From: Diphasiastrum complanatum
Lineage: Eukaryota; Streptophyta; Lycopodiopsida; Lycopodiales; Lycopodiaceae
Direction: 5' to 3'
DNA: 64,000 nucleotides
Assembly (NCBI GenBank): GCA_029204225.1
Contig: CM055093.1
Location: 18,253,041-18,317,040 of the forward strand
The position numbers and the translations under genes were made by a program. Under the pieces are notes generated by a model, which was not told where the DNA came from, did no database searches, and saw nothing but the letters and a program-made list of their open reading frames with translations. Shown here in pieces: positions 1 through 47,775 of the stretch (its first letter is position 1; the number at the start of each line of letters is the position of its first letter).

Positions 1-2190
1 CCTTTTCGCTTACTTCTGCCTCTCGATTTATCATTACCCGTGCATTTTCTGCTGCAATATCTTAAAGATGTGCAATGCGTCCTCGCTCCGTCACGCCATT
101 TTCCGTTTCAACTCACAGATCAGTCCCCCGTCTTTGCTTTGGAGCTCGTCACGCAGATTCCGCCGGTTGCAATCTATGATCACAGTACTCTTCCTGTCAG
201 ACGGAATGGTGCATTGGCACCCTGTACTCACTCTATCCCATATCAGCATAGGATATCCCACGCTCATCATTCCATATCGGCATCTCACTCTACCATGGCA
301 TCATGCCATCATCCTAAACACGCCAACTTGCTGATCTCACAGTTTTCATTCTCTTTGCTTGAAATAAGCTGCACTCACTGAACGTACATATAACCCACCA
401 CAATCCCTATCGTCCATATTGAAGCCGATCGAGATTCCCTGACTCCTGGGTCCTCTCTCTATAAGTGTATTCGGTACTACCGCATTAGCCAGAAACAGAT
501 GAAACTCTGGAGTCAGGTCGTAGTGTAGAGTGTGAACTGTGGATACTGGACAGAAAATTATACCGTACTAGTTAGGTGTTGTACATAGTGACTCGTTGGG
601 AACGCCAGGGTGGAGTCCGTGCTAGTTGCCAGCATACTTTCTCTCGGACCTTCGAATTCTAAGATCATGCATCCTTCGTTGGATGATGGATCTACACTTT
701 AGCAGCCTTTTCCACTATCACTGATCAGCTTTACATGCAACAATAATGCACCGGATCTCATACCACAGCACGGAATCAAAGCCAGAGGACATAAACTCCA
801 TTCATGGCCTAACGAAGCAAATACGGTAGATGCATTGTCAATGAGTGATCAGTTGTCAGATGCATGATCAATCATCAAGGATCGTGCTGAATTCTGATGC
901 CAAGTTCATCTGTCAGGATTCACAGCCAAACTATTGCAGAGCTCCTTGAATTCTTAGTACTTACCAGTATTCAGTGTTCACAAGCAATGGCTGAACTTCG
1001 AAGCCTGAAAACGTGAAAAAGAATTCAGAATGTAAGAAGAGATCATGACCCACCTGGCTTTCTTCACGGGATGCATGCAAAGTGCAGAGTATCTGAATTA
1101 CATGAATAGGATGGATGTGCCCTTAATCATGATGCTTCCTCCTTGCCAATTGGAGCTCAGCAGTGGGGACTAGGGAGCTTTCATTTTGTCCAAAAAGACC
1201 AGGGCTATGGTGTTGACGTGCTAAAAGATGAATTTGTCTCATGTTTGTGAGTTTGAGCTGTAAATAAACTAAATTTTGTGTAACTATTTTTAAATGCCAC
1301 ATCTCTTTTGTCCATTTTTTAACCAACAATCTTTGAGTGTACACATGTGCAACAGAGCTTCTCGTGATATCTCAATCACCTTGTATGTTTTTTTGGTCTT
1401 TGACACATGTGCAACAAAGCTTTTTGAGATATCTGGATCACCTTATTCTCTACAAAGCTTCTCGCGATATCTGGATCACCTTATTCTCTATTGCAAAGAA
1501 AATGACCAGGTAGTATAAGATGATGAAAAAAATGTCAAGAATAAATATTAATCATATATCTAAATAATGGTTGCATAGGCATACAACTCTAGGTTAACGT
1601 CAATGAAAGATTGATCCAGCCAGTATTAGCTTTATGCATCATTTCACTATTCATGACGTTCGAGGAAGAGACACCTATCTTCCATCCTTTCTATGTATTG
1701 ATAGTTTGTCATTCACTCATAAGGAATATATGTGGTAGTTCATATTGCTCTCTTGTTGTTGCTTCAAGCTTCTTCTACATGATTAATATGGTATCAAAGG
1801 CAGTGGGGAGGTTTTCTTTTTTGTGCTTGCTTGAGTAAAGGTGTTGAAGGAAGCATTAATGCAAGCCAACACAGAGGTGAGAATATCAACGTGTGCACCC
1901 ACCAACAGTGCTCATCCTTCGCATTAGTCCCATAAGTAAATAGGGGCCTTGGATTCTCCTCCATAGTAGTTGCACTATGACTCTAGTCATCACTTGGTAC
2001 CTGCCCTTTGGGGACCAAACTCCAACTACAAAAGGTTGCAAGAGAAATAAGAACCTAAATAGTTACAATTTTTGTGACAAGAGCAAAGATTTCTTCATAA
2101 TCAATGCCATACTTTTGAGCTACTTTTTTTTTTCTCTCGAAAATCTAACGATAGATTATGAAATATATACAAAGTACATGCTCTAACTAA
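1..2190. other. No recognisable gene
   Basis: I see no conserved domain, RNA gene or terminal repeat here. Open frames are short (up to 113 codons) and of biased composition. An imperfect duplication of a motif ending in GATATCTGGATCACCTTATT lies at about 1360-1490. This is probably decayed intergenic or repeat DNA. Confidence 0.5.
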
Positions 2191-2199
2191 ACTTACAGT

Positions 2200-2521
2200 A
2201 ACAAAAAAATTTCAGCCTCTTTAAAAAGAAGCAGGAGAGAGATACTAAAGTCACCAGTCCCAAATTCCTTGTTGTTCCTATCTAGCCATATGTTCCAAAG
2301 AGTGATTACTCTAATGTGCTACCAAAAAGCATTTATCTCTAAATCCTCAAAAGTGATATTGTTCAACAGTAAATATGTGTGGTTAAATCTAACATGGAAG
2401 TGCGCAATAAAGAGATCGGACACTGATTTCCAAAGAGGAGCATAACAATGAAAAAATAGATGGATCACATCCTCATCAAATGTTTTGCATTTAGTGCAGA
2501 CATGCGATACATCACCTCAAT
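2200..2521 (-). pseudogene. LINE (L1-type) 3' end, zinc-binding domain relic
   Basis: On the minus strand one frame reads C-T-K-C, then DEDVIHLFFHCYAPLWKSV, then further on RVITLWNIWLDRNNKEFG. A CxxC pair followed by an acidic HLFFHC block, and then W-x-x-W-x-x-RN-x-x-x-F, is the signature of the reverse-transcriptase zinc-binding domain (zf-RVT) at the C terminus of plant LINE ORF2. The frame contains stops and no reverse transcriptase core is seen nearby, so this is a truncated dead copy. Confidence 0.6.
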
Positions 2522-3244
2522 AACTATGAAAATTTGACAAAATCTAGCTTGGATACTTTGCATTTTCTTGTATGAGAATAAATCTCACACGTGTGGAGCA
2601 TGTTCCCACATGTGGAAAATAAGCAAAAGTAACTTAGTCATGTTGAGTTAGGGGTACTTGAAGTTTTGGAGACATCTTTCCATTGGCATTAGAGGCAATT
2701 TGTGTAAGTACACATGTAAGGGCTTGATTTGTCCAAAAGTAGAAAGTGATGTAGTTTGAATTAGGTTAGGCTACTTGTTAAGAATCATATTTGATCTAAT
2801 ATGTCTTTATTGTAAGCTCAAAATGCAGTATTGTAATTAATTGTACATATCTTCAATTAATTAGCATTTATAGTTTTCAGTAACTAGTAATCGGGACTAG
2901 ACCTACACTGGTTATATCAGCCGGTCATTTGTCCCTTAGATGGTTTCTCTTGGATTAGCCGACTAGCCACACACGTAGAGAAATTGAATTGTACAGTGTA
3001 TTTTGGTTTCATTATGCTATACTCAGGGGCATGTCCTGAGTTTTTTAGTCTTTTAGCCCATGTTGGGCCTATTAGTGAGACAGGTGCTTTTTTAGTGTGT
3101 TGACACTTGTCGAGCCCATGCATGTTGGGGCTTTTGGCATATGTACAGTTTTCTCTTTGTAATCTAAAACTTTTGTTTTGCCATCTTTGAGAGCTTGTGA
3201 CGAGTGTCTATTGTGATTGATTGACATTAGAGAAAATATGGGCC
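2522..3244. other. No gene; possible LTR fragment
   Basis: No domain is visible. About 2560-2640 carries, in reverse orientation, motifs like the end of the LTR near 34.5 kb (AAATCTAGCTTGG and a CACACGTGTGGAGCATG palindromic stretch), so a diverged LTR fragment may lie here. Confidence 0.3.
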
Positions 3245-3635
3245 CAAAGAGGGCCCTATAAGAAATGCCATGTAGGAGAGAGAAAAATAACTATAAAGTA
3301 ATTATAATGTCATTTTCTAACTTCTTTACGCATCTGCCCGCACTACTTTCAATGTAAATGAATGCACCTTAGTTTAGTCGCATCAAACTTCATTGGTGTT
3401 TAACCATAGTTAAAATATAATTTTTCAAAATGTTGAAATATTCCCTCCCAATAGTTGGGAACACTCAAAAATTTGAATTAGGAGTGACATTTCTGAAAAA
3501 AAAAAGCCTACGCCATCTCTATCTCCAGGGTAAAAAACAAGTGTTTAGCACCATCTCTATCTCCAACAGAGTCGTTAGCACCATCTCCAGCTTTGTTATT
3601 GTCATTGTGTTGTTTGTTACTATACTACTGTACTG

Positions 3636-6291
3636 ATGACAAAGCTTTATCATCTTCATGTGGATTTGTCACCAGAATATGCTCTGCTCAGGACAAGAAA
3701 TTCAAAGCAACCGAAATTGTCAACTTCTGATATGGTCCGATACAGGGAGGAAAAGCTAAAGCATGTAGATTTATGGTCATCAGGAACATTGTATCCTATT
3801 GATCCATGTTCATTGCAACATTCAGATTTTCATTTGGTGAGTCAGTTAATAATCTATATGTGTCATGGTAAAAATGACCTTTTGGGTTACTGTGAGAATT
3901 TGATGTTGTATGGGAATGCACATTCAATGCAAAGAATACATTATTTGGAAGAGGAATCAAGGAAAATATCAAAGGAGTGCGAAGAAAAAGCTACATAGAT
4001 AAAAACTTGTTTGGAAAAATGAGAGGCTCAAGGAGGAGATCCAAAGGTTGAAACCTTTTTTGCATCATTATACAACTAGTAATGATGAGATAAAAATTGC
4101 ATTTCAATCCATGCGTATCTCATATTTGTCTCTTGTATGGATGTGCTCAACAGAAAGGTCCGAAGCAACAAGAGGAAAAGACTAGTAAACAAGGATATAT
4201 GTGATCTATCATCCAGAGGAGGTCATAGAAAAAGACGAATTTGTGCATTCAAGTAAGTTATAGCTTATTTGTATCGAATATTTCTTGAACTTTTTGATTC
4301 ATTCAGAATCACTAATTTTGTTATTTATTCATTTCAACTTTCTGTTGATTTGCTTATTATATACTGTTGTGAATACTATGAGTGTCCCAATTTCTACTCA
4401 CATTTTCATGAACATTATGTTTCATCAACTGGAAACTCACTAGGCTCTATCTTGACTTCTAAATCTATGAAATCAATGTTAAATAATAACAAAATGAAAA
4501 AGATTAAGACTTCAGTTACTGATAGCATTATGGATGAAGTTGGAAAAATATTAGACACTACATTGCTTAAGGGGGCATGTGACTTTTCTAGCATCAGTAG
4601 GGAAGCATATGCAACAATGTTTAAGATGATAGGTATGCAGACAATAGTTGGTAATCCATCTCATATCAATGAAGTGTATTGCTCGAAAGGAGAAAGTTTA
4701 GCTTATAACAATTCCAACAATTGATTTATTGACATTAATCAGTTATTAACATTCATCATAAATTTTTACGGTATTACAAATGAGAATGTCAATAACAAGT
4801 TGATAGTTGTTCTCAAGTTAGATGAGTCTGAAATTATAAAAGGACAAAAAATGGAAAGAGTCAGTCTCACGATCATGAATGGAGCACTTTCAAATTCAGA
4901 AAACTCGGAAGGCCTCAATTTCAGTGTTCAATCAGAAAATGATATCTGGTGGTTGGCATCATTTTATGTATAGCAGTTCCTTCGCATAATAAATAGGGAT
5001 AATCATTTGAATATGGATTTCATATGGAAAATCTTCTCTGTGTTAATATTATGAGGCTAATCACGGTTTGTATTCTCTTATAGGTGCTAAAAGAAGACCA
5101 TGACATTCTCTCATGGATATTTAATAGAACATCATATCCTGCCACCACAAAAAATCACATGGAGGGAGTTCCGCTCAATATTCCTGGAATTGGCACTTTC
5201 AACATTGAATGACATTTAGCAGGAGATCTGAAGACATTAAAATGTATGTTCAATGTATCTCATGGCACTAACTCTAAACACCCTTGTTTGTACTGCATGA
5301 AAACAACAAAAGACATGACAAGGAGTACAGGAATATCAAGAGATTGAGAAGATCCTAATTGGAAACCTGTACTACCGATTCCTCTACGAAATGTTCATAT
5401 CTGTACATTGCATGCGGAGGTGGGTATTATAGAAAAAATAATATATCTTCACATCTTGTTTGCATGGAATTTCGAGCCAGAGGCCTCTACGAAGGAAGCT
5501 ATTTCCAGATTAGATGATGTGTTGTCCAAAGCAGGCTTACATAAAGGCCACGTTAAAATTAAAAAAGATGACAAGTTATAAGGTAAAACAGGAAATATTC
5601 CATGCAAGCTGAGCATTGGAGGATTTAAAGCTCGAAGATTTTTATCAAATTATTCTGGCAAACAATCTAAGGTTCAATACACGGTTTGGAAAGAAATTAT
5701 TGCAGCAACTCAACATTTCGAAGGAGGTTCTACTTGTACACAAAGTAGAAGTTTGGAAAAAGTTAGACAACATGGTGAAATACTTGAGAAAAGATAAATT
5801 TTCAAATACTAATGTACAAATGATACAGAAAACAACCAATGAATTTGTGGATGCAGTTCAAAGTGCATGGGATGTTGGTCATATAACACATTATATGGTA
5901 AGATTTTGATTTTACACTACGATAGACAAATATGTGCAATTAAGTTACATACTTTTGGTACTGATTTAGATTATGTTTTTATGACATGCAGCACATATTA
6001 CGACATCATTCGATATTTTTTGCAAGAAATAGTGGAAGTCTTAGCATATGGTTATCACAAGGAATGGAAAAATCTCATTGGCAAGCAAGAGCGGCATTTC
6101 ATAAAAGTACACAACATGGCGGGACTAGCACAAAAAACAGTTATATACTGCAACTTTTCCAATGGTTTTACAGAAGAATCCAAATTCGTCATTATACAAA
6201 ATCGACGGATTATAAAAAATTTCAAAAAGCATGCAAATTTATACAAGCCAATAGGCTATATACACACAATAAAATTTTGTATATTAAATAA
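3636..6291 (+). pseudogene. RAG1/Transib-like DDE recombinase, decayed
   Basis: Several exons can be followed. An N-terminal exon (from 3636) ends at a GTAAGT donor at 4253. A middle exon carries LKLDESE, then ERVSLTIM, then SENDIWWLASF. An exon from 5084 carries AGDLKTLKCMF, CLYC, LHAEVG and KARRFLSN. A GT-AG intron (5898-5991) joins GHITHYM to HILRHHS, followed by GSLSIWLSQGMEKSH. By eye these align in order with the RAG1 core: D600 (KFDG), D708 (ESDHETL), the zinc cysteines of ICTLC, the zinc histidines (H-x4-H) of YFHKTLAH, and E962 (EGNES). Stops at least in the AGD and CLYC exons, and a 2-nt deletion near 5737 relative to copy B, make it inactive. A related DDE family with the same fold is the main alternative. 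Confidence 0.55.
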
Positions 6292-6321
6292 AAATATCTA
6301 CAAAGTACAATTCAGCAGTAT

Positions 6322-6931
6322 CTAATCTGCTTCCGATATTTTCTCCAATGAAAGTTGCAACTTAGAATCATGCAACAATTTTCTTCTTTCGTATGGATCC
6401 AATAGCTCATAGTTTTCATGCTTACTCAGATCAACATAAGCAGCATACAATGCAAAATGAGATGATCTGAGCATGGAATTCACTGGTACATATCTTGAAA
6501 TTTTAACGGCAATAGTTTTCTTTACATAAATTATTTTATGCACCTTATTGAAATTATGTCCTTTAAGAAAATGAGACAGTGTCTTGATTGCCATAATCAT
6601 AGTTTCACCATGTTGATGAAACTTTGAATGGGCAACACTTATCTCATCATTCTTGAAGGACTTCAGATAGTGCCCCAGTGCATGATCTCTTGAAAATTCT
6701 CCAACAAAAGATCTCTGCCCTCCTCGACGAATTGCAAAATCATCAAGGAAAATTGTTTCCTGAAATGATAGAACAAAGTAAGCTCCAATATATAATTTGA
6801 CAGAACAAATCTACAAGTACTTGATAAGATACAAAAACTTACGCATTCGGCTTTGTCTTCCCTGATACTGTCTCTCCATCAAAATTATGTCCACCTTTTG
6901 ATGTCAATAATGTTGGTGAATAGACAGTTGG
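6322..6931 (-). pseudogene. Second gene of element A, unknown function
   Basis: Two exons run on the minus strand. The first (about 6931-6843) contains KGGHNFDGET and ends at a GTAAGT donor. The second (6759-6322) follows a TTTCAG acceptor, begins ETIFLDDFAIRRGG and ends in SEKISEAD-like sequence plus a stop. The last 91 codons match element B at about 85 percent amino-acid identity by my count, so they were under protein-level constraint. Compared with B, exon 1 lacks one base (frameshift). I recognise no domain. It is not an obvious kelch protein, so it cannot be called RAG2-like on sequence, although the convergent position is the same as RAG2-like genes in ProtoRAG elements. Confidence 0.55.
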
Positions 6932-6990
6932 GAATGATTGATCTGACATCTGTCACGTGCGAGAATGACACGCATCGAGAACGGATTCAT

Positions 6991-7120
6991 GCACGTGTCC
7001 CATCCCACGTGGCCTCATAATTGGGTCATCATTGTCAGTACGGACATCCACATGGACCAATAATCTGACGACATGTGTCTTAGCCATCTTTTCACACGTG
7101 CAAAAATTTTGTATATATAA
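6991..7120 (+). promoter_or_regulatory. Putative promoter of the H3-like gene
   Basis: Two G-box cores (CACGTG at 6992 and CCACGTGG at 7005) and a CCAAT motif lie upstream of a clear TATA box, TATATATAA (7112-7120). The interval to the ATG at 7431 would be a 5' leader of roughly 280 bp. The arrangement resembles an ordinary plant RNA polymerase II promoter. Activity is inferred. Confidence 0.4.
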
Positions 7121-7430
7121 GTCCTCGAAATTTTCATTGTTTTTCACAAAATTTTCGCTTTTCGCACCCAATATCGCACACAAGCACGCTCTCTCACCGT
7201 TCAAGCTTCCGCCCTCTCGCAGTGCACTCGAGTCCGATACCGCTGGTAGTGCAATATCGCTTTCGAACGCGCATCTATTTTCTTAAAAAGCTCTATGTAG
7301 ATCTTGCGCTCGAAACCAATATTCAGTTCTGGTATCGATCTCTAGCGCCATTTTGTCGCAAAATTTTTTGTTTTCAACCACTTTTTTTTTGTTCAAACAC
7401 CTTTTTGTTAACTTTCTTCTTCTGAGAATG

Positions 7431-8439
7431 ATGGCCATGACCAAATCCACCGCCCTTGCCATAACCATTATACAGTCATCCCATTCCCATGTTCCCCCTG
7501 GTACTAGCCGTAGGCGTGGCAAAAAGCAAGTCTGGCTGAGGGAGATCAGAAAACTCCACAGATCAACTGAATTGTTGATCCCTAGAGTTCCTTTCGGCTG
7601 ATCTGTACGAAATGTCACTCTATCACTTGGGCTGAATGTTCGTTTTGTCGTGACAGCCATGCAGGCCTTATAGGGTGCTGCAGAAAGATTTTTTGTCCCA
7701 GTTTTTTGAGGATACTTGTCTTTTGGCAGTGCATGGTAAGCGTGTCACCATCATGCCAAAGGATTTCGTCATTCTCAAAAGGCTTCGAGACAAATATTTT
7801 GGTCTGCATATTAATAATGTCAGCACCTCCAGAGACCTGCCTCTGGATAGAACCGACTTGCCTACTACCTCTAGGAGGAAGAGGAAGCAGCCTGTTCCCA
7901 AGAAGGCTAGATCTCGAAGGCCAACTGCTTCCCTTCCTCCTAGACGTATCCCGGCCAAGAGACCCCATATCTTCTTGAGCTCTGAATCAGATGCTGGAGA
8001 ATCTGACTCAGATCGAGAATTTTCACCCCTTCCTCCTCATGTTATTCGTCCAGCTCCTCAGTAAGTTTCATCACCAAAAGTGTTGATTACCCAACAAGAG
8101 CTCGACAAAATAACAGAGAAATCTGTAAATATTGTTTCCACTTTTGTTTTAGCTCCTGTACATAATCTTTTTGTGAGAATTCTATACGATCCCACCCAAG
8201 TTTATTTTGATTCTGACCATTATAATCAATACGAGGCCTACTTAGCTAATAAAATTGATCATCTCGACAACTTTTTTGTTTTTTTTCTTCCAGATGCACG
8301 TACAAGCTTTAGATTAGGTCCCAAATTTTGTGCCGAGCTGAAAGATAAAACCTCAGAAATTTCTAATGTAATAGTAGAAGCCGGAGTTTCTTTTTTGCAG
8401 AATAGTATTAGTTTCCCATGGTATAGTTTTTGTTGTTAG
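7431..8439 (+). pseudogene. Histone H3-like gene with long C-terminal tail, broken
   Basis: The reading starts MAMTKSTALA, one base each from the H3-like MARTKSTARA. The core follows in order: LREIRKLHRSTELLIPRVPF (alpha-N and alpha-1), a loop reading LNVRF, AMQAL and GAAERFF (alpha-2), then FEDTCLLAVHGKRVTIMPKD (alpha-3). Breaks are TGA at 7599 (an Arg position in H3), TAG at 7671 (a Gln position) and one extra T in the run 7702-7707. After RLRDKYFG, where H3 would end, the frame continues through a Lys/Arg/Pro-rich segment with SSESDAGESDSD, then a TAA at 8062, then 119 further codons in the same frame to 8439. Loop 1 has canonical H3 length, not the longer CENH3 loop. Genuine H3 ancestry is strong; the function of the tail is unknown. 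Confidence 0.75.
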
Positions 8440-8540
8440 TCCATTTTTCATGGGAGTGGTAAAGGCGAAAGAAGCCAATTTTGAGAAGGCTGTCTATTTC
8501 ATCGAATGCAGTCTTGTGGCGAAATTCTATTTAATTCCAT

Positions 8541-11200
8541 ATGAAAATAAGTAAGGATTGCTCTTTTGTTTTTGTTGTTTTAATCTGGATTGCTGCATGC
8601 TTCATTGTTTTAATAAGTAAGAAATTTTTTCATAAATATGGATTTATCGATCAAAAAGAAATAAAAGTCCTTCCTAACATAGAGGAAGGCAATTTTATAG
8701 CAGATATTCCTCTTGTCTTAAAAGGTATTGAGGACCTTCCCGAAACGGAGCATTAGGGCCTTTTTTGAACTCAAAAAGGGCCTCTTCACTAATCTGGATT
8801 AGTGTTAATGACGACACGTGTACCAATAAAAGTGTGACAATTGAGCAGGAATGGTCCATATGACATGGCAGATTCAATGGTGTAGACTAAATCAAGTGTG
8901 GGCCCACAAAGTATACCTCTAGCATTAACCCTACATTAACCCTACATGGATACACTTGAAAGTACCAGTAACCAACAATAGCTACACACAGTACCTAGTA
9001 GCCAACAATAGGACAACAACTAGTGCTCTAGGTGAGACATAGAATTGCAAGCCTCATTTAATGCCCAAGTACATTTCAAATTTGAAATTTGCTTATGAAT
9101 TTTAATCAACCCACTTTTGTGTCCCCCTTCACATTCAAACTAAGACTACTCATTAGCCTTTCACATACCAAATAATTTATTTTTTTCAAATGGATATCAA
9201 TTTTTTCAAAATTGACCTTTGGAATACATTTTCATTTCGCCATGGATTTAGTCTGTTTGACCTCAGAACCTCAAAAAAAGTGTTTATAAGTCAATTTGTT
9301 TTTATTAGTTTACAAACAGAAATATATCCCGGAGGCCAATTTTTCATTTTTTTTTTGGCCCGAAATCGCGATTTTTGGCCGTTTCGCTTCATCAGAAGCC
9401 CAAAAATTGCGTATCGGACCCAAAAAAAAAATTTTCAAAATCACGATAAGGCGCGATTCTGGGCGTGACGTTTCTTAAGTCACACGGGTTAGAATAGCAT
9501 GGATTTGCTCTGACACCGGCACACGTGTTCACACCATTTCTTTTAGCGATAAGCAATATATACGGTGAAAACTTTTCATACTTTTGCTATAAACAAAATA
9601 AACTAATACGGATCAATGCCCAAAAACTGATCATCATGGCACTCATCCTGATACGGTAACGGAGGGGCTTGGTCAAATGGCCCAAAATCGCGCCTTACCG
9701 TGATTTTGAAAAAAAAAAAATTTGGTCCAAAACGCAATTTTTGGCCTTCTGATGAAGTGAAACGGCCAAAATCGCAATTTCGGGCCAAAAAAAACGAAAA
9801 ATTGGCCTCCGAGGGATACATTTTTGTTTCGTTATGGATTTAGTCTGTTTGACCTCAGAACTTCAAAAAAGGTGTTTATGAGTCAATTCGTTTTTGTTAG
9901 TTTACAAACAAAAATGTATCCCGAAGACCGGTTTTTCTTTGTTTTTGGTCCAAAATCGCGATTTTTGGCCGTTTCACTTCATCAGAAGGCCAAAAATTGC
10001 GTTTCAGACCAAAAAAAAAAAAAAGAAATTTTTTTTTTTCAAAATCACAGTAAGGCACGATTTTGGGCCGTTTGACCTAAAAAACAAAAATTGGTCCAAA
10101 ACGCTAATTCTGGCCTTTTGATGAAGTGAAATGGCCAAAAATCGCGATTTCGGGCCAAAAAAAATGAAAAACTGACCTTTGGAATACATTTTCATTTCGC
10201 CATGGATTTAGTCTGTTTGACCTCAGAACCTCAAAAAAGGTGTTTATTAGTCAATTTGTTTTTATTAGTTTACAAACAGAAATGTATCCCGAAGGCCGGT
10301 TTTTCTTTTTTCTTGGCCCAAAATCGCGATTTTTGGCCGTTTCACTTCATTAGAAGGCCAAAAATTGTGTTTCGGACCAAAAAAATAAATAAAATTCAAA
10401 ATCACGGTAAGGCGCGATTCTGGGCCGTTTGACCAAGTCAAACGGGCGAAAATCTATTCTTATCGTGATTTTGAAAAAAAAAAAATTGGTCCGAAACGCA
10501 ATTTTTGGCCTTCTGATGAAGTAAAATGACCAAAAATCGCGATTTCGGGCCAAAAAAAAAAAAAACGGCCTTCAGGATTCATTTCTGTTTGTAAACTAAT
10601 AAAAACAAATTGACTAATAAACACCTTTTTTGAGGTTCTGAGGTCAAACAGATTAATCCATGGCGAAATGAAAATATATCCTGAAGGCCAATTTTGAAAA
10701 AAAATTATATCCATCTGAAAAAAAATAATTATTTGGTAGGTGAAAGAGGAGTGAAAGTGAGGTAGTCTTAGATTGAATGTGAAGGGGGACACAAAAGTGG
10801 GTTGATTAAAATTCATAAGCAAATTTCAAATTTGGAATGTACTTGGGCATTAAATGAGGCCTGCAAGTCTATGTCCCACCTAGAGCCCTAGATGTTGTCC
10901 TATTGGAACCAAGACAATGAATATGCTAGTCTTGCCTTACAAAGTACCTACAAAAGTCTATGGATGATGGGACCTATATTTAGCCCTTAACTCTTGCTCA
11001 CCCTATGTGGTAACCCAAGGTAAAAGTGCCACGTAGTGATTAACACTAAACTAATTATGATTAACAAACCTGTTTAGACAAAGAAGAGGCCCTTTTTGAG
11101 TCCAAAAAGGGCCCTAATGGAGGGCAAGATTATAGAAGGAATTGTTGTCTTATCAGTTCCTAATACTGATAAAGAAAATATAGATAAATTGATTGAATAG
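8541..11200 (+). pseudogene. ORF split by the foldback element
   Basis: The left part (8541-8750) encodes a hydrophobic segment (FVFVVLIWIAACFIVLI) followed by a polar region ending PETE. The right part (11123-11200) continues GKIIEGIVVLSVPNT and stops at TAG. Removing the 2369-bp insertion and one GAG copy joins the halves in one frame, so they were one ORF before insertion. It may be a later exon of the H3-like gene or a separate small membrane protein. I recognise no family. Confidence 0.5.
8751..11119. mobile_element. Foldback, CACTA-like non-autonomous element, copy 1
   Basis: Termini are CATTAGGGCC and its inverse GGGCCCTAATG, flanked by a direct GAG on both sides (8748-8750 and 11120-11122). 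A 3-bp target duplication and CA..TG-type ends fit the CACTA (EnSpm) superfamily, although the end is CATTA rather than CACTA. The first 37 bp themselves form a hairpin (GGGCC-T6 against A5-GGGCC). The interior alternates forward and inverted units of roughly 200-250 bp (forward near 9230, 9830, 10190; inverted near 9625, 10080, 10450) with GGCCAAAAATTGCG and AAAATCACGGTAAGG motifs. It has no transposase. Confidence 0.7.
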
Positions 11201-15028: not shown

Positions 15029-15607
15029 CTACATTTCTTCTTGAAGAAGATGACCAATCTCCTTTTGAAGAGTGAGGTCAAGTTGTGTGGAGATCATCAC
15101 CACAAAGTGTTCATACGACTTTGGAAGAGAAGAAAACAAGGTCATAACGACATTATCATCTTGAATAGAACATCCTACAGTTGATAACTGATCAAATAGG
15201 GACTTGAAGCTATTGATGTGAGAAGTGATGGCAGTAGAATCAGACATGCTAAGAGTAAAGAACTTCATTCTAAGGTGTAATCTAGTGGTTACATCATGAG
15301 TCTCATAGAGATTTGATAACAAATCTAATGCATCCTTAGAGGTTTTGCATGTGGTAACATGGGATATTTGGGAGTCGGCCAAATTGAGCGTGATACATGC
15401 TAAGGCCTTCTGATCTTTGATCTTCCATGCCTTTGCTTGATCACCATCTTCTGGCTTCAGGTCTACACCTTCTACTACATCCCAAAGATCTCTATCTATC
15501 AACATCATTCGGAGTTTTAACTTCCAGATGTAGAAGTTAGAACCATTGAACTTGTCAATGACTCTAGCTTCGTTGTATGATGAAGAAGAGCTACCAAGAT
15601 GAGACAT
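15029..15607 (-). pseudogene. Copia Gag (UBN2-type), nearly complete N-terminal part
   Basis: An open frame of 192 codons starts MSHLGSSSSSYNEARVIDKF, followed by FNGSNFYIWKLKLRMML, then DALDLLSNLYETHD, MKFFTLSMSD and LFSSLPKSYEHFV. This order is that of the plant copia Gag polyprotein domain (UBN2). The zinc knuckle expected next is not in frame. It lies 54 bp from the primer site, as expected for the first ORF. Confidence 0.8.
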
Positions 15608-15660
15608 GATAATAGTAATACAAATAGAACAAACTTAATCTCTCGGTTTATTTGGACTAC

Positions 15661-15914: not shown

Positions 15915-17741
15915 CATTAGGGCCTTTTTTGAACTCAAAAAGGGCCTCTTCACTAATCTGGATTAGTGTTAATGACGACACGTGTACCAATAAAAGTGTG
16001 ACAATTGAGCAGGAATGGTCCATATGACATGGCAGATTCAATGGTGTAGATTAAATCAAGTGTGGGCCCACAAAGTACACCTCTAGCATTAACCCTACAT
16101 TAACCCTACATGGATACACTTGAAAGTACCAGTAACCAACAATAGCTACACACAGTACCTAGTAGCCAACAATAGGACAACAACTAGTGCTCTAGGTGAG
16201 ACATAGAATTGCAAGCCTCATTTGCCCAAGTACATTTCAAATTTGAAATTTGCTTATGAATTTTAATCAACCCACTTTTGTGTCCCCCTTCACATTCAAA
16301 CTAAGACTACCTCACTTTCATTAGCCTTTCACATACCAAATAGTTTATTTTTTTCAGATGGATATCATTTTTTTCAAAATTGACCTTTGGAACACATTTT
16401 CATTTCGCCATGGATTTAGTCTGTTTGACCTCAGAACTTCAAAAAAAGTGTTTATAAATCTATTTGTTTTTATTAGTTTACAAACAGAAATATATCCCAA
16501 AGGCCAGTTTTTCATTTTTTTTTTTGGCCCGACATCGCGATTTTTGGCCGTTTCGCTTCATCAGAAGGCCAAAAATTGCGTTTCGGACCCAAAAAAAAAA
16601 TTTCAAAATCACGGTAAGGCGCAATTTTGGATCGTTTGACTTTCTCAAACGGCCCAAAATCGTGCCTTACCGTAATTTTGGAAAAAAAATATATATTGGT
16701 CCGAAACGCAATTTTTGGCCTTCTGATGAAGCGAAACGGCCAAAAATTGCGATTTCGGGCCAAAAAAAATGAAAAACTAGCCTCCGGGGGAATACATTTT
16801 TGTTTCGCTATGGATATAGTCTGTTTGACCTCAGAACCTCAAAAAAGGTGTTTATAAGTCAATTTGTTTTTATTAGTTTGCAACCAGAAATATATCCCAG
16901 AAGCCAGTGTTTCGTTTTTTTTTTGGCCCGAAATCGCGATTTTTGGCTGTTTCAGTTCATCAGAAGGCCAAAAATTGCGTTTCGGACCCAATTTTTTTTT
17001 TTTTTCAAAATCACGGTAAGGCACGATTTTGGGCCGTTTGACCAAGTCAAACGGCCCAAAATTGCGCCTTACCATGATTTTGAAATTTATTTTTTTTTTG
17101 GGTCCGAAACGCAATTTTTGGCCTTCTGATGAAGTGAAACGGCCAAAAATCGCGATTTCGGGCCAAAAAAAACGAAAAAACTGGCTTTCGGGATATATTT
17201 TTGGTTGCAAACAAATAAAAACAAATTGACTTATAAACACCTTTTTTGAGGTTCTGAGATCAAACAGACTAAATCCATGGTGAAATGAAAATGTATCCTG
17301 AAGGCCAATTTTAAAAAAATATATATATCCATTTGAAAAAAAATAAATTATTTGGTATGTGAAAGACTAATGAAAGTGAGGTAGTCTTAGTTTGAATGTG
17401 AAGGGGGACACAAAAGTGGGTTGATTAAAATTCATAAGCAATTTTCAAATTTGAAATGTACTTGGGCATTAAATGAGGCCTGCAAGTCTATGTCCCACCT
17501 AGAGCCCTAGCTGTTGTCCTATTGGAACCAAGACAATGAATATGCTAGTCTTGCCTTACAAAGTACCTACAAAAGTCTATGGATGATGGGACCTATATTT
17601 AGCCCTTAACTCTTGCTCACCCTATTGGGTAACCCAAGGTAAAAGTGCCACGTAGGATTAATTAACACTAAACTAATTATGATTAACAAACCTATTTAGA
17701 CAAGGAAGAGGCCCTTTTTGAGTCCAAAAAAGGCCCTAATG
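15915..17741. mobile_element. Foldback, CACTA-like non-autonomous element, copy 2
   Basis: The same CATTAGGGCC...GGCCCTAATG ends as copy 1, and nearly identical left and right arms of about 400 bp. The middle is shorter (1827 bp in total against 2369), with fewer inverted units. The flanking triplets are ATT (15912-15914) and ACT (17742-17744), a 2 of 3 match to a target duplication. It is inserted in the LTR of the minus-strand copia. Confidence 0.7.
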
Positions 17742-23464: not shown

Positions 23465-23641
23465 ATTTCAAAAGGGGTTCTAAGGAATGCCACGTAGGAT
23501 AAAAAAAAACTCGCCGAATTTTGTAATTCTAGTATCTTACAACCTACATAGTTGAATGGATTTACCTATTTTTTTTTCTGATCTCTCTATCGATATTTGT
23601 TGAGATGTCTAAGTTTAATCTCTCTATCGATATTTGTTGAG

Positions 23642-24007
23642 ATGTCTAAGTTTCATCTACATATTGATCTCCTTGTTGAGAAAGCTCTGATATCCAGAAG
23701 AGGAGCAGTAAAAGGATCCACAGTTTTTGGCACTTTGATTATGGATCACATAATCGACAAAAAAAAAACCTATGATTTGTGGGGTGACAAAAGTTTGTAT
23801 CCACAATTTCAATCAATCACACAACTCATAACGTTTTTGTATGAAGAACGCAACGGTTTATTGGGTTATTGTGAAAGATTGAGGACTTACAGTGTTGCAA
23901 ACTCGGTGCAAATATTCCAAAGCTTAGAGCGTACATTGAATGGTTTACTTGTTGACTATAGAGAAAAAGAGACCATATTATTGCCAAAAAAAAAAAAAAA
24001 AACATAA
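23642..24007 (+). pseudogene. Gene 1 N-terminal exon, element B
   Basis: It starts MSKFHLHIDLLVEKALISRR and contains YDLWGDKSLYP and GLLGYCERLRTY. Element A at 3636-3998 has the matching LHVDLSPEYALLR, VDLWSSGTLYP and DLLGYCENLMLY, so this is the same N-terminal domain. It runs into a poly-A tract (KKKKK) and stops. A 45-bp direct duplication (GAGATGTCTAAGTTT...) lies just upstream. The domain is not one I recognise. Confidence 0.5.
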
Positions 24008-24639
24008 TTCACGTTCGCATAATGTTATATTAAAATTAAACGAAAGCAATGATCAAGTGCAGCAAATTTTCTAGGCATAACGTAGATCATATGATCAATT
24101 AAAAGAAGAAGCTCACATACTAGATAAGAATTAAAAAAATAATAAGAAGGTAACCATTACAGAGTTTTTATTTTGTTAACAATTTGAAAATTTTGTAACT
24201 GGCTCAGTAGTCAATAAAATGAAAAGAAAAATTATATCTCCAGAAAGCTCTTTATGTTTTCAAATCGAATTATAGAGAATAGAAGGTTGTGCAAAACATG
24301 GATCAAATAGGCCAAAAAAAAAAAATCTGGAAGTTTTTTATTTATGAAAAGTTTACAAAATTTTGTTGCCAATTTCAAAATTTTGTAACTTCCTGAATAC
24401 TTAACAGAATCTAAAAATATATATAATTCTAAAAAGCCCTTTCAATGCTCTACAACTTTAGTTATTCAGATCCAATTACAAAGAATAGAAAGGTGGGCGA
24501 AAATTGAATCAAACAGGGCAAAAAAAATTAAAAAATAGAAAATATTGTCCCCACTCATTTTTTGAACGTTTTTGGACATAACTCTCACAAATCACATCCA
24601 TAATGCAAAGCTAACCCTAGCATGCCAACCCATGTTTGT

Positions 24640-26290
24640 ACTGCATGAAGACAACAATAGACATCACAAGGAGTACATGAATATCAAGAGATCGAGAAGA
24701 TTCTAACTGGAAACTTGTACTACCAATTCCTCTTCAGAATGTTCAGTGTTGAATTCACACGTGTGGATTGTCCACAACATGTACTTGTGATCTCCTAAGA
24801 TGTGTAGATGCACCAAGATCAAGACTAGATTGAGATTCAAGATCTATCTTTGATTCTATGGCAAAAACACACTACTACATGCATTCAATCACTTCCAACT
24901 CTCACTCACACGTGTGGGAAGTGTTCCAAAAGTATTCTAAGTAAAAACAAGCTGCTCTCCTCGGGTAGAGAGAGAAAAACCATCATGAGCTCTCGGGTAG
25001 AGAGAGAAAGCTAGAAATTCAATGACACTCAAAATCCACTCAATCTCAAAATCAATTAGATCCAAAATGAGGAGTACAATGATACTAGTAGATTCATGAG
25101 CTACCACTATGCTTAACTATGATTGGATCACACTTTGCCACCTCTTAATCCTATTGGACCATTGATCCATGCACCTCTAAATTCTATTGGACTATATTCA
25201 AGCACACCTCAAATTCCTATTGGACCACACATGGTTCCACCTCTAAAACCTATTGGACCTCTTAAACTTCATCAAACAAAAGCATTACACTTGTCTACAC
25301 TCTAATTGGAACAAGTTTGGCCTCCTACTCTATTTTTGGCCCAATAGTGGCATTACAAGTGGAAATGGATAATTTGCCATCTATGCCAAATTTGACCCTA
25401 TCAACATCCTACACCTAAATGCTTGACTGTGAAATTCTATGAGACCCCTATATCAAACATTTTGATTTACTTTACAATTCTCCACACGTGTGAGATTCAC
25501 TTACAAACTTCTATCATAAAAAATACCAAGCTAGATTTTTGCCAATTTCTCACATTCAGGTGCGTATAATAGAAAAAATAATATATCTTTACATCTTGTT
25601 TGCATGGAATTCCGAGCCAGAGGCAATTGCGAAGGAAGATACTTTCATATTAGAGGATGTGTTGTCTAAAGCAGGTTTACATAAAGGCCACGTTAAAATT
25701 AAAAAAGATGACAAGCTACCAAGTAAAACAGAAAATATTCCATGCAAGCCAAGCATTGCAGGATCCAAAGCTCGTAGATTTTTATCAAATTATTCTGGCA
25801 AACAATCCAAGATTCAATACTCGGTTTGGAAAGAAATCATAGCTGCAACTCAAGATTTCGAAGAAGAAGGTTCTACTCGTCTACACAAAGTAGATTAGAT
25901 AGCATGGTGAAAAGATAAATTTTTAAATATTGATGTACAAATGATACAAAAAACAACCAGTGAATTTGTGGATGCAGTTGGGAGTGCATAGGGTTTAGAT
26001 CATATAACTCATTATATGGTAAGATTTTGATGTTACACTGGTATAGACAAATATGTGCAATTAATTTAGATACTTTTGGTACTGATTTGTATTTTTTTTT
26101 AATGATATGCAGCACATATTACGGCATCATTCAACATACTTTGCAAGAGATAGTGGAAGTTTTAGCATATGGTCATCGCAAGAAATGGCAAGCAAGAGCG
26201 GCATTTCATAAAATTACACATTCACAAAGAACAGCTATATATTGCAACTTTTCCAATGGTTTTACAGAAGAATCCAAATTTGTCATAATA
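24640..26290 (+). pseudogene. Gene 1 C-terminal half, element B (solo LTR inside)
   Basis: Outside the solo LTR it reads as in A: LYCMKTT, then after the insertion RIIEKIIYLYILFAWN, GLHKGHVKIKKDD, KARRFLSNYSGKQSKIQYSV, GLDHITHYM with the same GTAAGA donor, and after the CAG acceptor HILRHHSTYFARDSGS. A deletion of about 14 bp relative to A removes the GMEKSHW block with the presumed catalytic Glu. Stops are also present, so the copy is dead. Confidence 0.55.
24747..25554. mobile_element. Solo LTR with 5-bp target duplication
   Basis: An 808-bp segment begins TGTTGAATTC, ends TTTCTCACA and is bounded by direct TTCAG on both sides (24742-24746 and 25555-25559). Element A has no insertion at the equivalent site. 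Ends, size and target duplication are those of an LTR left by recombination between the two LTRs of a retrotransposon. It is related to the LTR at 33796-34599. Confidence 0.8.
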
Positions 26291-26418
26291 CAAAATCGAC
26301 GAATTAGAAAAAATTTCAAAAAGCATGCAAATTTATACAAGCCAATAGGCAATAGACACACAATGAGATTTTGTATATTTAATGAAAAATTTTACAAAGT
26401 ACAATTCAACAATATCTA

Positions 26419-27220
26419 CTATGCTTCCGATACTTTCTCTAATGAAAGTTGCAACTTAGAATCATGCAACAATTTCCCTCTTTTGTATGGATCCAAGAGC
26501 TCATAGTTTTCATGCTTACTCAATTCAATGTAGGCAGCATACAATGCAAAATGAGATGATCTGAGCATGGAATTCACTAATCTATATCCTAAAATTTTAA
26601 GTGCAATAGTTTTCTTTACAAAAACTATTTTATGCACCTTATTAAAATTATGTCCTCCAAGAAAATGAGATAGTGCCTTGATTGCCATAATCATTGTCTC
26701 ACCATGTTGATGAAACTTTGAATGGGCAACACTTATCTCATTATTCTTGAAGAACTTCAGATAACCCAGTGCATGATCTCTTGAAAATTGTCCAGCAGAA
26801 AATCTCTGCCCTCCTGGACGAATTGCAAAATCATCAAGAAAAATTTGTTTCCTGAAATGAAAAAATCCAAAGTAAGCTCCAGTATATAATCTGACATAAC
26901 GATTCTTCTAGTACATAATAAGATACAAAACTTACGCATTCATCTTTGTCTTCCTTGATTACTGTCTCTCCATCAATATTATGTCCACCTTTCAATGTCA
27001 ATATAGTTGGTGAATAGATAGTTGGTTTTGGAAAACCAAGCTAACTTTGAATTTTGATAAACTCCTCTTCAAAAGGCAGGTCATCTTCTTTATTGTGCAT
27101 TTCCTCCAAAGCCATTTTCAAGCAATCTTTCCCTGAATAAGACTCATCATTATTTACATCGTCAACACCAGGGAGAAGATCATCAGCATCAAAATCAATT
27201 ATATTTGAAAAAAATCTATT
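26419..27220 (-). pseudogene. Second gene of element B, unknown function
   Basis: The upstream exon (about 27220-26936) is acidic (DFDADDLLPGVDDVNNDES, then EEMHNKEDDLPFEEEF). After one stop it continues PTIYSPTILTLKGGHN and ends DKDEC at a GTAAGT donor. The downstream exon (26851-26419) has one extra A near its start but then matches A closely (MLRSSHFALYAAY, KHENYELLDPY). Splice sites are conserved between copies. The acidic N terminus is seen only here because A diverges first. Confidence 0.55.
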
Positions 27221-36319: not shown

Positions 36320-36847
36320 ATGGGATCAGTGGGAGCCTACCTTCTAGAAGCTAGTGAGAGGTTAAATTCTACCAATTATGCTATTTGGAAAGTGAGGATG
36401 GAGTCACTCATGGTGCTCCAGGATCTTTATGAGTTTCTAATTGATGATGAAGATGAACCTCTAGGTGCACAGGAATTAGTGAGATACAAGAAGAGGTCTA
36501 GGCTTGCACTTCACTGTATTAAGATGAATGTAAGCAATGATCTTTTGAGGGAAGTATCATCATGTAAAAGTGCTAAATAGGCTTGGGAATCTTTAAAATC
36601 AATCTATCAGTCTAGTAACACTTCGAGGGTTCTCATGCTTAGGAATCAGATTCTACAAAGCATGAAGAGGAGTTATGAGAGTGCACAGGATTATGTGCTC
36701 AGAATCAAGTCTCTCAATAGGGAGTTATCTTCCATTGGAGAGAAGATTCAAGATGGTGAGCTTGTTCAGATTGTCCTTAATGGTCTAGGGAGTGACTTTT
36801 CAAATTTGGCCAAAGCTTTGCAATCCAAGACATTTTGCCCACTATAG
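36320..36847 (+). pseudogene. Copia Gag N-terminal part
   Basis: It starts MGSVGAYLLEASERLNSTNY, then NYAIWKVRMESLMVLQDLYE, interrupted by TAG at 36578 (a K-*-AWES context, so CAG or TGG was likely), then RSYESAQDYVLRIKSLNREL and GLGSDF. This is the UBN2-type Gag core. A frameshift at the end joins it to the next frame. Confidence 0.8.
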
Positions 36848-38805
36848 AAAAGTTTCATAGTGTATTAGTGGCTGAAGAGTGTAGGATGATGCATACCAAT
36901 GCAGGAATGAATGCTATTTCTCTGCAGGATGGCGATGAGAAAGCTAATTTCTCATTCAAAGGCAAGAAGAAGACCAATGGCAAGAAGAAGCACTTCAAGG
37001 AGACCAAGGAGGAGGAGGAGGCTTCAAGCTCAAAGGGCAAGATCAAAGACAAGTCCAAGTACAAATGTTTTTTCTGTGAAAAGAAAGGACATTTTGCATC
37101 AGAATGTCTCAAGAAGAAGAAGGCACAAGAGAGCAAACAAAGCAACATTGCACATCAGGAGGAGGAGGATGAAGAAGAGTCATCCTTGATGGTTTCCAAC
37201 AAACCACCATCATCCAAGTGCAACACCAATGATTCTTGGTGGATTGATAGTGGGGCAAGATCCCACATGACATATCAAAAGGAAATTTTCTCCACTTTAC
37301 TTTCTTACAATGATTTACATAGATCAATCTATACTACAAGTAGTCAAGAATGTAAGATAAGTGGAATAGGAACCATTCCATTGTATGTTGGATCATCGAA
37401 AAGGATGAGTCTTGAGAATGTTCTTTATGTTTCTAAATCAACCAAGAATTTGCTTAGTTTTGGCCAATTAATGGATAATGGCCTTGATGTACAATTTAAG
37501 CATGGAGTTTGTTCCATCCTTAGAAATGATGAATGTATAGCCAAAGGCTTTAAGCAAGGTAGATTGTTTAAGCTTGATGCTAATATTGTAGTGGAGAGTG
37601 TTAACTTGGAAAAGGTGGACTTATCAAAGGTGGAACTATGGCACAGAAGGTTGGGACACCCCAACTTCAAAGCCATGGAATCTATGGTTGCAAAGGAGCT
37701 TGCAGTTGGACTCCCCAAGCATTTGTCAAAGTGTGGGAAGATATGTGAAACATGCAGCCTCTCAAAGGCTCACAAACTACCCTTCTCAAGATCTACATCA
37801 AGATCAAGCTCTCCTCTTGAACTCATCCACTCGGATGTTCATAGCTTTTCACATGAGTCTAATGGTGGTGCCAAATATTATGTAATCTTCATTGATGACT
37901 ATTCTAGATATTGTTGGATTTACCTCTTGTATAGCAAAGCTATGGTGTTTGATTCTTTTGTAAACTTCAAGACTTTGGTAGAAAATCAACTTAGTACCAA
38001 GATTAAGGTATTAAGGAGTGATAATGGAGGTGAATATATCTCCAATAAGTTGATTGACTTTTGTAGTTCTAATGGCATAAAGAGAGAGTTGTCATGTCCA
38101 TACACCCCTCAACAAAATGGAGTGAGTGAGAGGAGAAATAGATCTCTTTGTGAGTGTGCTAAGTCCTTAAGGCTAGATGCTTCTCTATCCAAACCATTTA
38201 AGGGTAAGGCAATAACTTGTGCTAATTATTTGTGCAATAGATTGCCTAACCAAGCCATTGGAGGAATCACACCATTTGAAGCTCTATTTGGAGAGAAGCC
38301 CAATCTCAAGGATCTCAAAGTTTTTGAATCCACTTGCTATGTACACCAATCCTTAGATACAAGGAAGAAGGATGATGCAACCTCCATCAAAGGCATCTTT
38401 GTGGGATATGGTGAGAATAGCAAAGGATATAGAGTCTTCAATCCCATCACTAGCAAGGTGATAGTGAGTAGGGATGTTATTTTTTATGAAGGACATGCTT
38501 GTGATTTGGATGATAATGCTACTAATCATCTTGATGCCAAGGATCATGCTAGGATGGAGGAGGAGCTTCCAAGTGAAGAAGAACTTGAGGATCCACCTCA
38601 AGATGCAAGAACTCCAAGAAGATTTACAAGGGCAAGGTCCAAGCCATTGAGGCTCACCTATGATGGTCAAGGTGATCAAAGGGAAGGCTCATCATCTTTC
38701 ACATATTACACCTTTCTTACTTCAATGTTAGATGAGCCAACATCAAAGGCATTGATTATGATGAGACTTTTGCTCCTGTGGCTAAGCTTGTTACTATTAG
38801 GTTGA
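36835..38805 (+). pseudogene. Copia Gag zinc knuckle, protease and integrase
   Basis: A 656-codon open frame. Near residue 80 lies the zinc knuckle CFFCEKKGHFASEC (CX2CX4HX4C). Near residue 135 is the protease site WWIDSGARSHMT. The GAG-pre-integrase block LWHRRLGHPNFKAM follows. The integrase core has HSDVHSF, DYSRYCWIYLL, LRSDNGGEYIS and QQNGVSERRNRS, so all three acidic residues are visible. The C-terminal GIFVGYGENSKGYRVFNP block is intact. At the end the frame runs into shifted reverse-transcriptase DNA, so the last 20 residues or so are not authentic. These domains look intact; the polyprotein as a whole is broken. Confidence 0.9.
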
Positions 38806-47435: not shown

Positions 47436-47570
47436 TGTTGTCTGAGGAAAGTTCAGTGCTACACTTTCCAGCCTCCAATGTGATACAACCATTCCAACGA
47501 TGATAGTGGGCTACTAGGACACGACGTATTGCAGCCAGGGTTTAAGGTCTAGGGTCCAGTGATGAAGTTG

Positions 47571-47775
47571 TAGCATAAGTAGTTAGTAAGCTATTGGGGT
47601 TCATCCGGGGAGAAATCGATCTCATCCTATATGACATAGCAGTATGTAGGTTTAGGGTTTAGGGTTTAGGATTTGGAGCATAAGTAATTCGTAAGCTGTT
47701 GAAGTTCATCTGGGGAGAAACCGATCTCATCCTATAAGACATAGTAGTGTGTAGGTTTAGGGTTTAGGCTTAGAG
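47571..47775. repeat. Imperfect tandem duplication ending in TTTAGGG-like repeats
   Basis: Two units of roughly 105 bp each start AGCATAAGTA and contain GGGGAGAAA(T/C)CGATCTCATCC. They end GTAGGTTTAGGGTTTAGGG and GTAGGTTTAGGGTTTAGG. The TTTAGGG motif is the plant telomere repeat, here in two or three units only. Confidence 0.75.

Follow-up and report, generated by a model that had tools for sequence, protein, structure and literature searches.

A decayed transposase gene of probable RAG1/Transib type and its convergent companion in Diphasiastrum complanatum

The stretch of Diphasiastrum complanatum DNA considered here (contig CM055093.1, positions 18,253,041 to 18,317,040 of the forward strand; hereafter the window, 64,000 nucleotides in all) contains a putative transposase gene, gene 1, which is split and spans about 3636 to 6291 on the + strand, and a second gene, gene 2, which converges on it. 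Both genes recur farther along the window, and we refer to the two occurrences as copy 1 and copy 2. In copy 1, gene 1 is made up as follows:

3636..3998, + strand: N-terminal part, from tblastn with relatives (P0019, 41% over 103 amino acids, E 5e-18)
4371..4967 (start approximate), + strand: exon with the putative first catalytic Asp (4821-4823) and ENDIWWL, from frame reading and tblastn
4968..5083, + strand: intron 1, GT-AG, phase 0, from the sequence and alignment with relatives
5084..5897, + strand: exon with the putative second catalytic Asp (5225-5227), CLYC (5285-5296) and CxxH (5402-5413), from frame reading, tblastn and family conservation
5898..5991, + strand: intron 2, GT-AG, phase 0, splitting the Y-x-H zinc motif after YM, from the sequence and the Val that follows the motif in relatives
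5992..6291, + strand: last exon, with H4H, a Trp, the putative catalytic Glu (6067-6069) and the C-terminal domain, from frame reading and profile alignment

The motifs on which the initial annotation based its proposal of a RAG1/Transib-like recombinase are present on the + strand in the order given: LKLDESE, which holds the first Asp; SENDIWWLASF, just before intron 1; CLYC, with cysteine codons at 5285-5287 and 5294-5296; HITHYM and HILRHH, brought together across intron 2; and GSLSIWLSQGMEKSH in the last exon, which bears the Glu. Upstream, a tblastn match to P0003 (29% over 476 amino acids) covers 3645-4970, and the reading of another relative, P0036, breaks off in the alignment at about the site of intron 1. 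The gene is interrupted by apparent frameshifts near 4000, where the reading moves into 4003-4185, and near 5717, and by in-frame stops at 4722-4724, 5210-5212, 5345-5347 and 5579-5581. Because of these stops, gene 1 of copy 1 is dead, and neither copy in the window can act any longer.

When joined, the reading of gene 1 matches 45 database proteins (E 5e-113 to 2e-46), and we therefore reject the explanation that the motifs are a chance collection: these proteins are related, and D, D and C are nearly invariant among them. None of the 45 has a precomputed Pfam domain in its listing, and no relatives came to light when viral and prokaryote contigs were scanned with the family. We built a tree from 45 of the 46 rows (the 45 relatives plus the window sequence, one row being too short), in which 25 of the 42 inner branches received good support. 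The relatives fall into many divergent clades; the window copy sits on a long branch, and its placement is unsure. In the numbering of P0001, D508 and C588-x-x-H591 are kept in 46 of 46 rows, C531 in 45 and C528 in 44, whereas D411 is kept in all 41 of the rows that cover it, W713 in 41 of 41 and Y759 in 40 of 41. H761, H766, W779 and E785 are kept in all five rows that reach that block; the remaining 41 of the 46 rows stop before H761, mostly after intron tails were trimmed off.

The place where most rows stop is itself informative. An HY[MLI] motif occurs in 38 relatives, and in 37 of these the next residue is Val, which has a GT codon; P0001 alone reads straight through. Three relatives (P0002, P0017 and P0034) pick up the frame again at HI(L/I)-x-x-H beyond an intron-like stretch, and two others (P0003 and P0042) have tails past HYM that we read as out of frame. 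From the Val codons, which would supply the GT donor, and the in-frame resumption, intron 2, in phase 0 between Tyr-Met and the first zinc His, has very probably been conserved. The family is accordingly eukaryotic.

How closely does gene 1 resemble RAG1? Its last block aligns in register with Y935, H937, H942, W956 and E962 of RAG1, and the H-to-H, H-to-W and W-to-E spacings in the window gene are identical to those of RAG1, as the initial annotation had maintained; in P0001 the H-to-W spacing is one residue shorter. (RAG1 numbering was checked against the PDB chain for D708, C727, C730, D792-x-x-H795, W893, Y935, H937, H942, W956 and E962.) By eye, W713 of the family corresponds to W893, and CxxH to the DxxH of RAG1. 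The family thus has D-D-E together with the zinc C2C and H4H motifs in the order and spacing of RAG1 and Transib. When a trimmed family profile was compared with residues 689-1010 of mouse RAG1 using hhalign, the best local match fell on the H937-E962 block (score 31.5, P 0.0029; 200 shuffles scored at most 25.3 and reversed RAG1 14.2). This block alone, picked post hoc, matched RAG1 with a P of 1.8e-5 and an hhalign probability of 78%, and none of 200 shuffles was as good.

Structure prediction points in the same direction. With a model of an intact relative, Foldseek and VIA-align placed RAG1, the ProtoRAG protein RAG1L and HzTransib far above all other solved structures listed, and the predicted fold of the gene 1 family is that of a RAG1 core. 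In the structural alignment, identity is 12-15% for almost every RAG1 and RAG1L row. A search of a viral fold library yielded nothing at E<=1e-3. CACTA, KDZ and other superfamilies were not in the fold lists, an absence that excludes nothing. What argues for a RAG1-type protein is thus the predicted structure together with one profile-profile block.

The absence of a CACTA structure from the PDB comparison means that the fold search may be blind to the usual plant alternative, a diverged CACTA/EnSpm transposon. Two-gene CACTA elements are standard in plants. The C2C/H(3-4)H signature is common to CACTA and gene 1, as judged from excerpts of Kojima (2025, PMC12730594). On the other hand, the full Pfam lists for the window reading and 10 relatives contain no match to Transposase_21 or DUF4218. 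The Glu block of gene 1 did not match that of one plant CACTA DUF4218 sequence (69 of 150 shuffles were as good), a control that Pfam recognizes at 1.4e-35; the H-to-H spacing of gene 1 is that of RAG1, and that of the CACTA block is one residue shorter. We therefore reject an ordinary CACTA element, one sequence having been tested, and regard a diverged one as improbable. The last-block comparison, with one sequence on each side, favors RAG1/Transib over CACTA and does not settle the tree.

Gene 2 of copy 1 consists of the following parts:

6322..6759, - strand: last exon, converging on gene 1, an open frame of 145 codons after the acceptor
6760..6842, - strand: intron, GT-AG, aligning at the identical site in copy 2
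6843..6931, - strand: upstream exon, present only in part in copy 1, whose homology to copy 2 breaks off at 6931, from blastn and alignment

The convergent second gene of the initial annotation is thus confirmed, its open frame (6759-6322) being common to both copies. The protein encoded by the last exon is 84% identical between the copies, and in the upstream exon the DNA of the two copies differs by a one-base gap. Because it is present in both copies, we assign gene 2 to the element, for which it would have encoded an accessory protein. Its readable parts amount to about 230 amino acids, and RAG2 is much longer. We found no Pfam match at E<=1, kelch included, and a sequence search of the PDB gave nothing below E 0.2; an AlphaFold2 model built from two rows had a predicted local distance difference test (pLDDT) score of 37, which is unusable, and contained helices only. 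Judged by its sequence, gene 2 is not recognizably RAG2.

These results bear on whether the locus holds a true RAG-like (ProtoRAG/RAGL) transposon with RAG1L and a convergent RAG2L, the layout to which it had been likened. The predicted RAG1-type fold and the convergent gene order in both copies would suit such an element. The properties of gene 2 just described would not, and the likeness to ProtoRAG does not hold up; nor did the window yield the termini of such an element (see below). Moreover, mouse RAG1 finds BbRAG1L at E 4e-48, whereas the gene 1 family is found from neither. We consider a RAGL element very improbable.

The second copy was revealed by blastn of 1001-10000 against the 64-kb window: 5280-5397 corresponds to 24628-24745 (89% over 118 base pairs [bp]), and 5418-6931 matches 25558-27025 (86% over 1523 bp), continuing into gene 2. 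Its parts, and a candidate terminus of copy 1, are these:

23606..23980, + strand: copy 2, N-terminal part of a distinct, though related, gene 1 (tblastn, P0019, 34% over 122 amino acids, E 4e-9)
24628..26400 (end approximate), + strand: copy 2, middle and 3' part of gene 1, from blastn and alignment with copy 1
26413..27200 (both ends approximate), - strand: copy 2, gene 2, with an extra acidic upstream stretch that is missing from copy 1, from blastn and alignment
3245..3277, + strand: copy 1, weak candidate 5' terminal region resembling 23467-23499, its extent set by eye from comparison of the copies

The stretch 23606-23980 had no blastn match to copy 1; because it is detected at the protein level only, copy 2 is a mosaic. 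An unrelated 812-bp insert at 24746-25557, with CACACGTGTG motifs towards both its ends, splits its gene 1 and is apparently another mobile element. Homology of copy 1 to copy 2 stops at 6931, beyond which copy 2 continues into other sequence. As to the candidate 5' block, 3252 and 23474 agree in 20 of 26 bases (among 20 shuffled queries the highest agreement anywhere in the window was 18), and a scan with the block across the window found no 3' mate. The block does not begin with CAC; the terminal inverted repeats (TIRs) of RAGL elements start with CAC and are flanked by 5-bp target-site duplications (TSDs), according to excerpts of Martin et al. (2020, PMC7204232).

In the part shared by the copies, with stop and gap codons dropped, the ratio of nonsynonymous to synonymous rates (dN/dS) was 0.38 over 98 codons of gene 1 and 0.53 over 142 codons of gene 2, significance not being assessed. 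These values, both below 1, hint at past selection on both proteins. They could also speak for a transposase-derived host gene family multiplied by segmental duplication, as could the failure to find termini. Such a family is hard to reconcile with the lesions in both copies and with 5' parts that have no blastn match to each other, and the 45 relatives, spread over many divergent clades, resemble a family of transposons. We give this explanation very little credence.

We consider it highly likely, instead, that gene 1, now decayed, once encoded the transposase of a cut-and-paste DNA transposon and that this transposase had a core of RAG1/Transib type, with an RNase H fold, a zinc-binding insertion and flanking domains. 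The computed support consists of the fold match of the intact relative, the D-D-E, C2C, CxxH and H4H motifs, the conserved intron, the two copies and the convergent companion in both. Nicking, formation of a hairpin on flanking DNA and insertion of 3' ends are established for Transib and RAG1. By analogy, the gene 1 transposase would have nicked at the transposon end, the new 3'-OH would have been used to form a hairpin on the flanking DNA, and the freed 3' ends would have been inserted elsewhere. In RAG1, W893, Y935 and W956 have a role in the hairpin, and gene 1 holds Trp, Tyr and Trp at these positions. Among open-licence literature we found no paper naming W956 or Y935, and W893 appeared in none of the matches listed.

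Several results weigh against this interpretation. Searches of Pfam and PDB with phmmer, hmmsearch and hmmscan gave no RAG1 or Transib match for the gene 1 family. Indeed, neither Pfam scans of the single exons and the joined reading nor searches of PDB sequences, whether with a single sequence or a 30-row profile, recovered RAG1, Transib or any other transposase (the Pfam scan of 30 members listed 25 of 49 weak families). The whole-family profile had an hhalign probability of only 10.8% against RAG1 when trimmed; with untrimmed rows, most of which read into the intron after HYM, it was 0.7% (P 0.076). The P-value of the last block is optimistic, since the block was selected after the whole-profile run, and the block from the second Asp to GGxKAR gave no significant match to RAG1 (13 of 100 shuffles were as good). 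The TM-scores from Foldseek, normalized by target length, are a moderate 0.44-0.59, the root-mean-square deviation across the whole chain is 10-19 Å, and the H4H and Glu blocks, based on five sequences, are poorly modelled (ten-residue means of 58 and 35). No TIRs or TSDs were found for either copy, and an inverted-repeat search revealed no 3' end, so that mobility is only inferred. Finally, gene 2 could be a passenger.

The silence of the sequence searches is not proof of distance, since mouse RAG1 itself finds HzTransib only weakly (E 0.0095). Of the recombinase proposed by the initial annotation, the fold and the layout of catalytic and zinc residues stand, and the sequence signal that it expected from RAG1 and Transib profiles is confined to the last block; the searches did not place the gene in another transposase family either.

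To which lineage might gene 1 belong? The CMCT clade, which includes ESTA, Plavaka and Lanisha, is defined by three acids, two Cys and three His (excerpts of Kojima 2025, PMC12730594). This signature is found in P0001 as D411, D508, C528, C531, H591, H761, H766 and E785, the choice of H591 as the third His being our own assignment. We take the gene 1 family to be one lineage of the CMCT clade; judged by the sole comparable part, it stands closer to RAG1/Transib than it does to CACTA. It may be, though at less than even odds, that the family represents an undescribed superfamily, split off long ago, which has the complete RAG1 core in common with Transib, has lost sequence similarity to it and has an unrelated convergent partner of its own. 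It would then be a second, independent pairing of a RAG1-type transposase with a helper, outside animals. Transib-like transposons are thought to have given rise to RAG1. A lineage that combines the core fold of RAG1 with almost no sequence similarity, that spans many clades and that no Pfam model recognized in our scans would make the root of RAG1 both deeper and broader, and would allow one to ask which parts are ancestral: the zinc insertion, the hairpin-forming aromatics or the partner protein. Our results also suggest that elements of this family escape annotation in their host genomes.

It is possible, though less likely than not, that the lineage is not undescribed but is an already named member of the CMCT clade, most likely Lanisha; this explanation overlaps the preferred one, and the mechanism would be the same. 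Lanisha is said to have been described by Maumus, McDaniel and Carey in Repbase Reports in 2020, and two of these authors reportedly work on mosses, so that a plant host would fit. Excerpts of Kojima (2025, PMC12730594) assign Lanisha to the CMCT clade and credit it with C(2)C and H(3-4)H motifs; the gene 1 family may itself be Lanisha. The same excerpts liken Lanisha to EnSpm, whereas the Glu block of gene 1 is unlike that of the one plant CACTA sequence tested, and the Pfam lists given in full, for 10 relatives, contain no EnSpm model. Judging from titles and the beginnings of abstracts among the open-licence matches listed, no paper deals with the gene 1 family, save that the lineage names in Kojima (2025), Lanisha included, could refer to it.

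Other features lie nearby. Downstream of copy 1 is a decayed histone H3-like gene in two frames (7431-7598 and 7654-7800, + strand); Pfam Histone matches the pieces at 1e-5, just below the cut-off, and 4e-7, above it, and H3-like is our reading. Two related elements, at 8751-11119 (which holds a 368-bp tandem repeat) and 15915-17741, have inverted ends of about 37 bp beginning CATTAGGGCC and are possibly CACTA-type, resembling miniature inverted-repeat transposable elements. Pfam also identified copia-type gag and pol fragments at 15029-15634 (- strand) and 36796-38805 (+ strand), and a tandem 105-bp unit with TTTAGGG telomere-like repeats occupies 47568-47768. These repeats and the copia fragments accord with a plant host without being proof of one.

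Among known systems, the Transib transposase (HzTransib, PDB 6pqx and 6pqr) has no sequence match to the gene 1 family by phmmer or hmmsearch, and the family differs from it in having a long N-terminal coiled coil (in the model), an intron inside the zinc motif and a companion gene. The RAG1 core and ProtoRAG RAG1L (4wwx, 6xny and 6b40) differ in that the lists shown contain no RAG1 Pfam match for the family and that gene 2 is not recognizable as their partner; at the position equivalent by eye to R848 of RAG1 the family has Ser or Cys. Transib-like proteins have been reported from plants (39), fungi (20) and bacteria (42), which tempers the novelty that the initial annotation saw in a land plant, and a RAG1L-RAG2L element was found by homology search in a pelagophyte (Tao et al. 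2022, PMC9435367). Chapaev and Chapaev3 have been placed in the Transib superfamily, according to excerpts of Kapitonov and Koonin (2015, PMC4411706). The CMCT lineages ESTA, Plavaka, Lanisha, EnSpm/CACTA, Chapaev and Mirage have three catalytic acids, two Cys and three His, as does the gene 1 family (by description in the excerpts of Kojima [2025], apart from the one CACTA block compared directly, which did not match), and ESTA, like gene 1, is tied there to RAG1 by profile comparison (HHpred). Finally, the P element, hAT (Hermes) and ISCth4 share with gene 1 an RNase H core with a helical insertion. Hermes and ISCth4 also have the His of a C/DxxH motif, which in Hermes contacts the scissile phosphate (excerpts of PMC7780238), and the invariant CxxH of the gene 1 family would fit such a contact.
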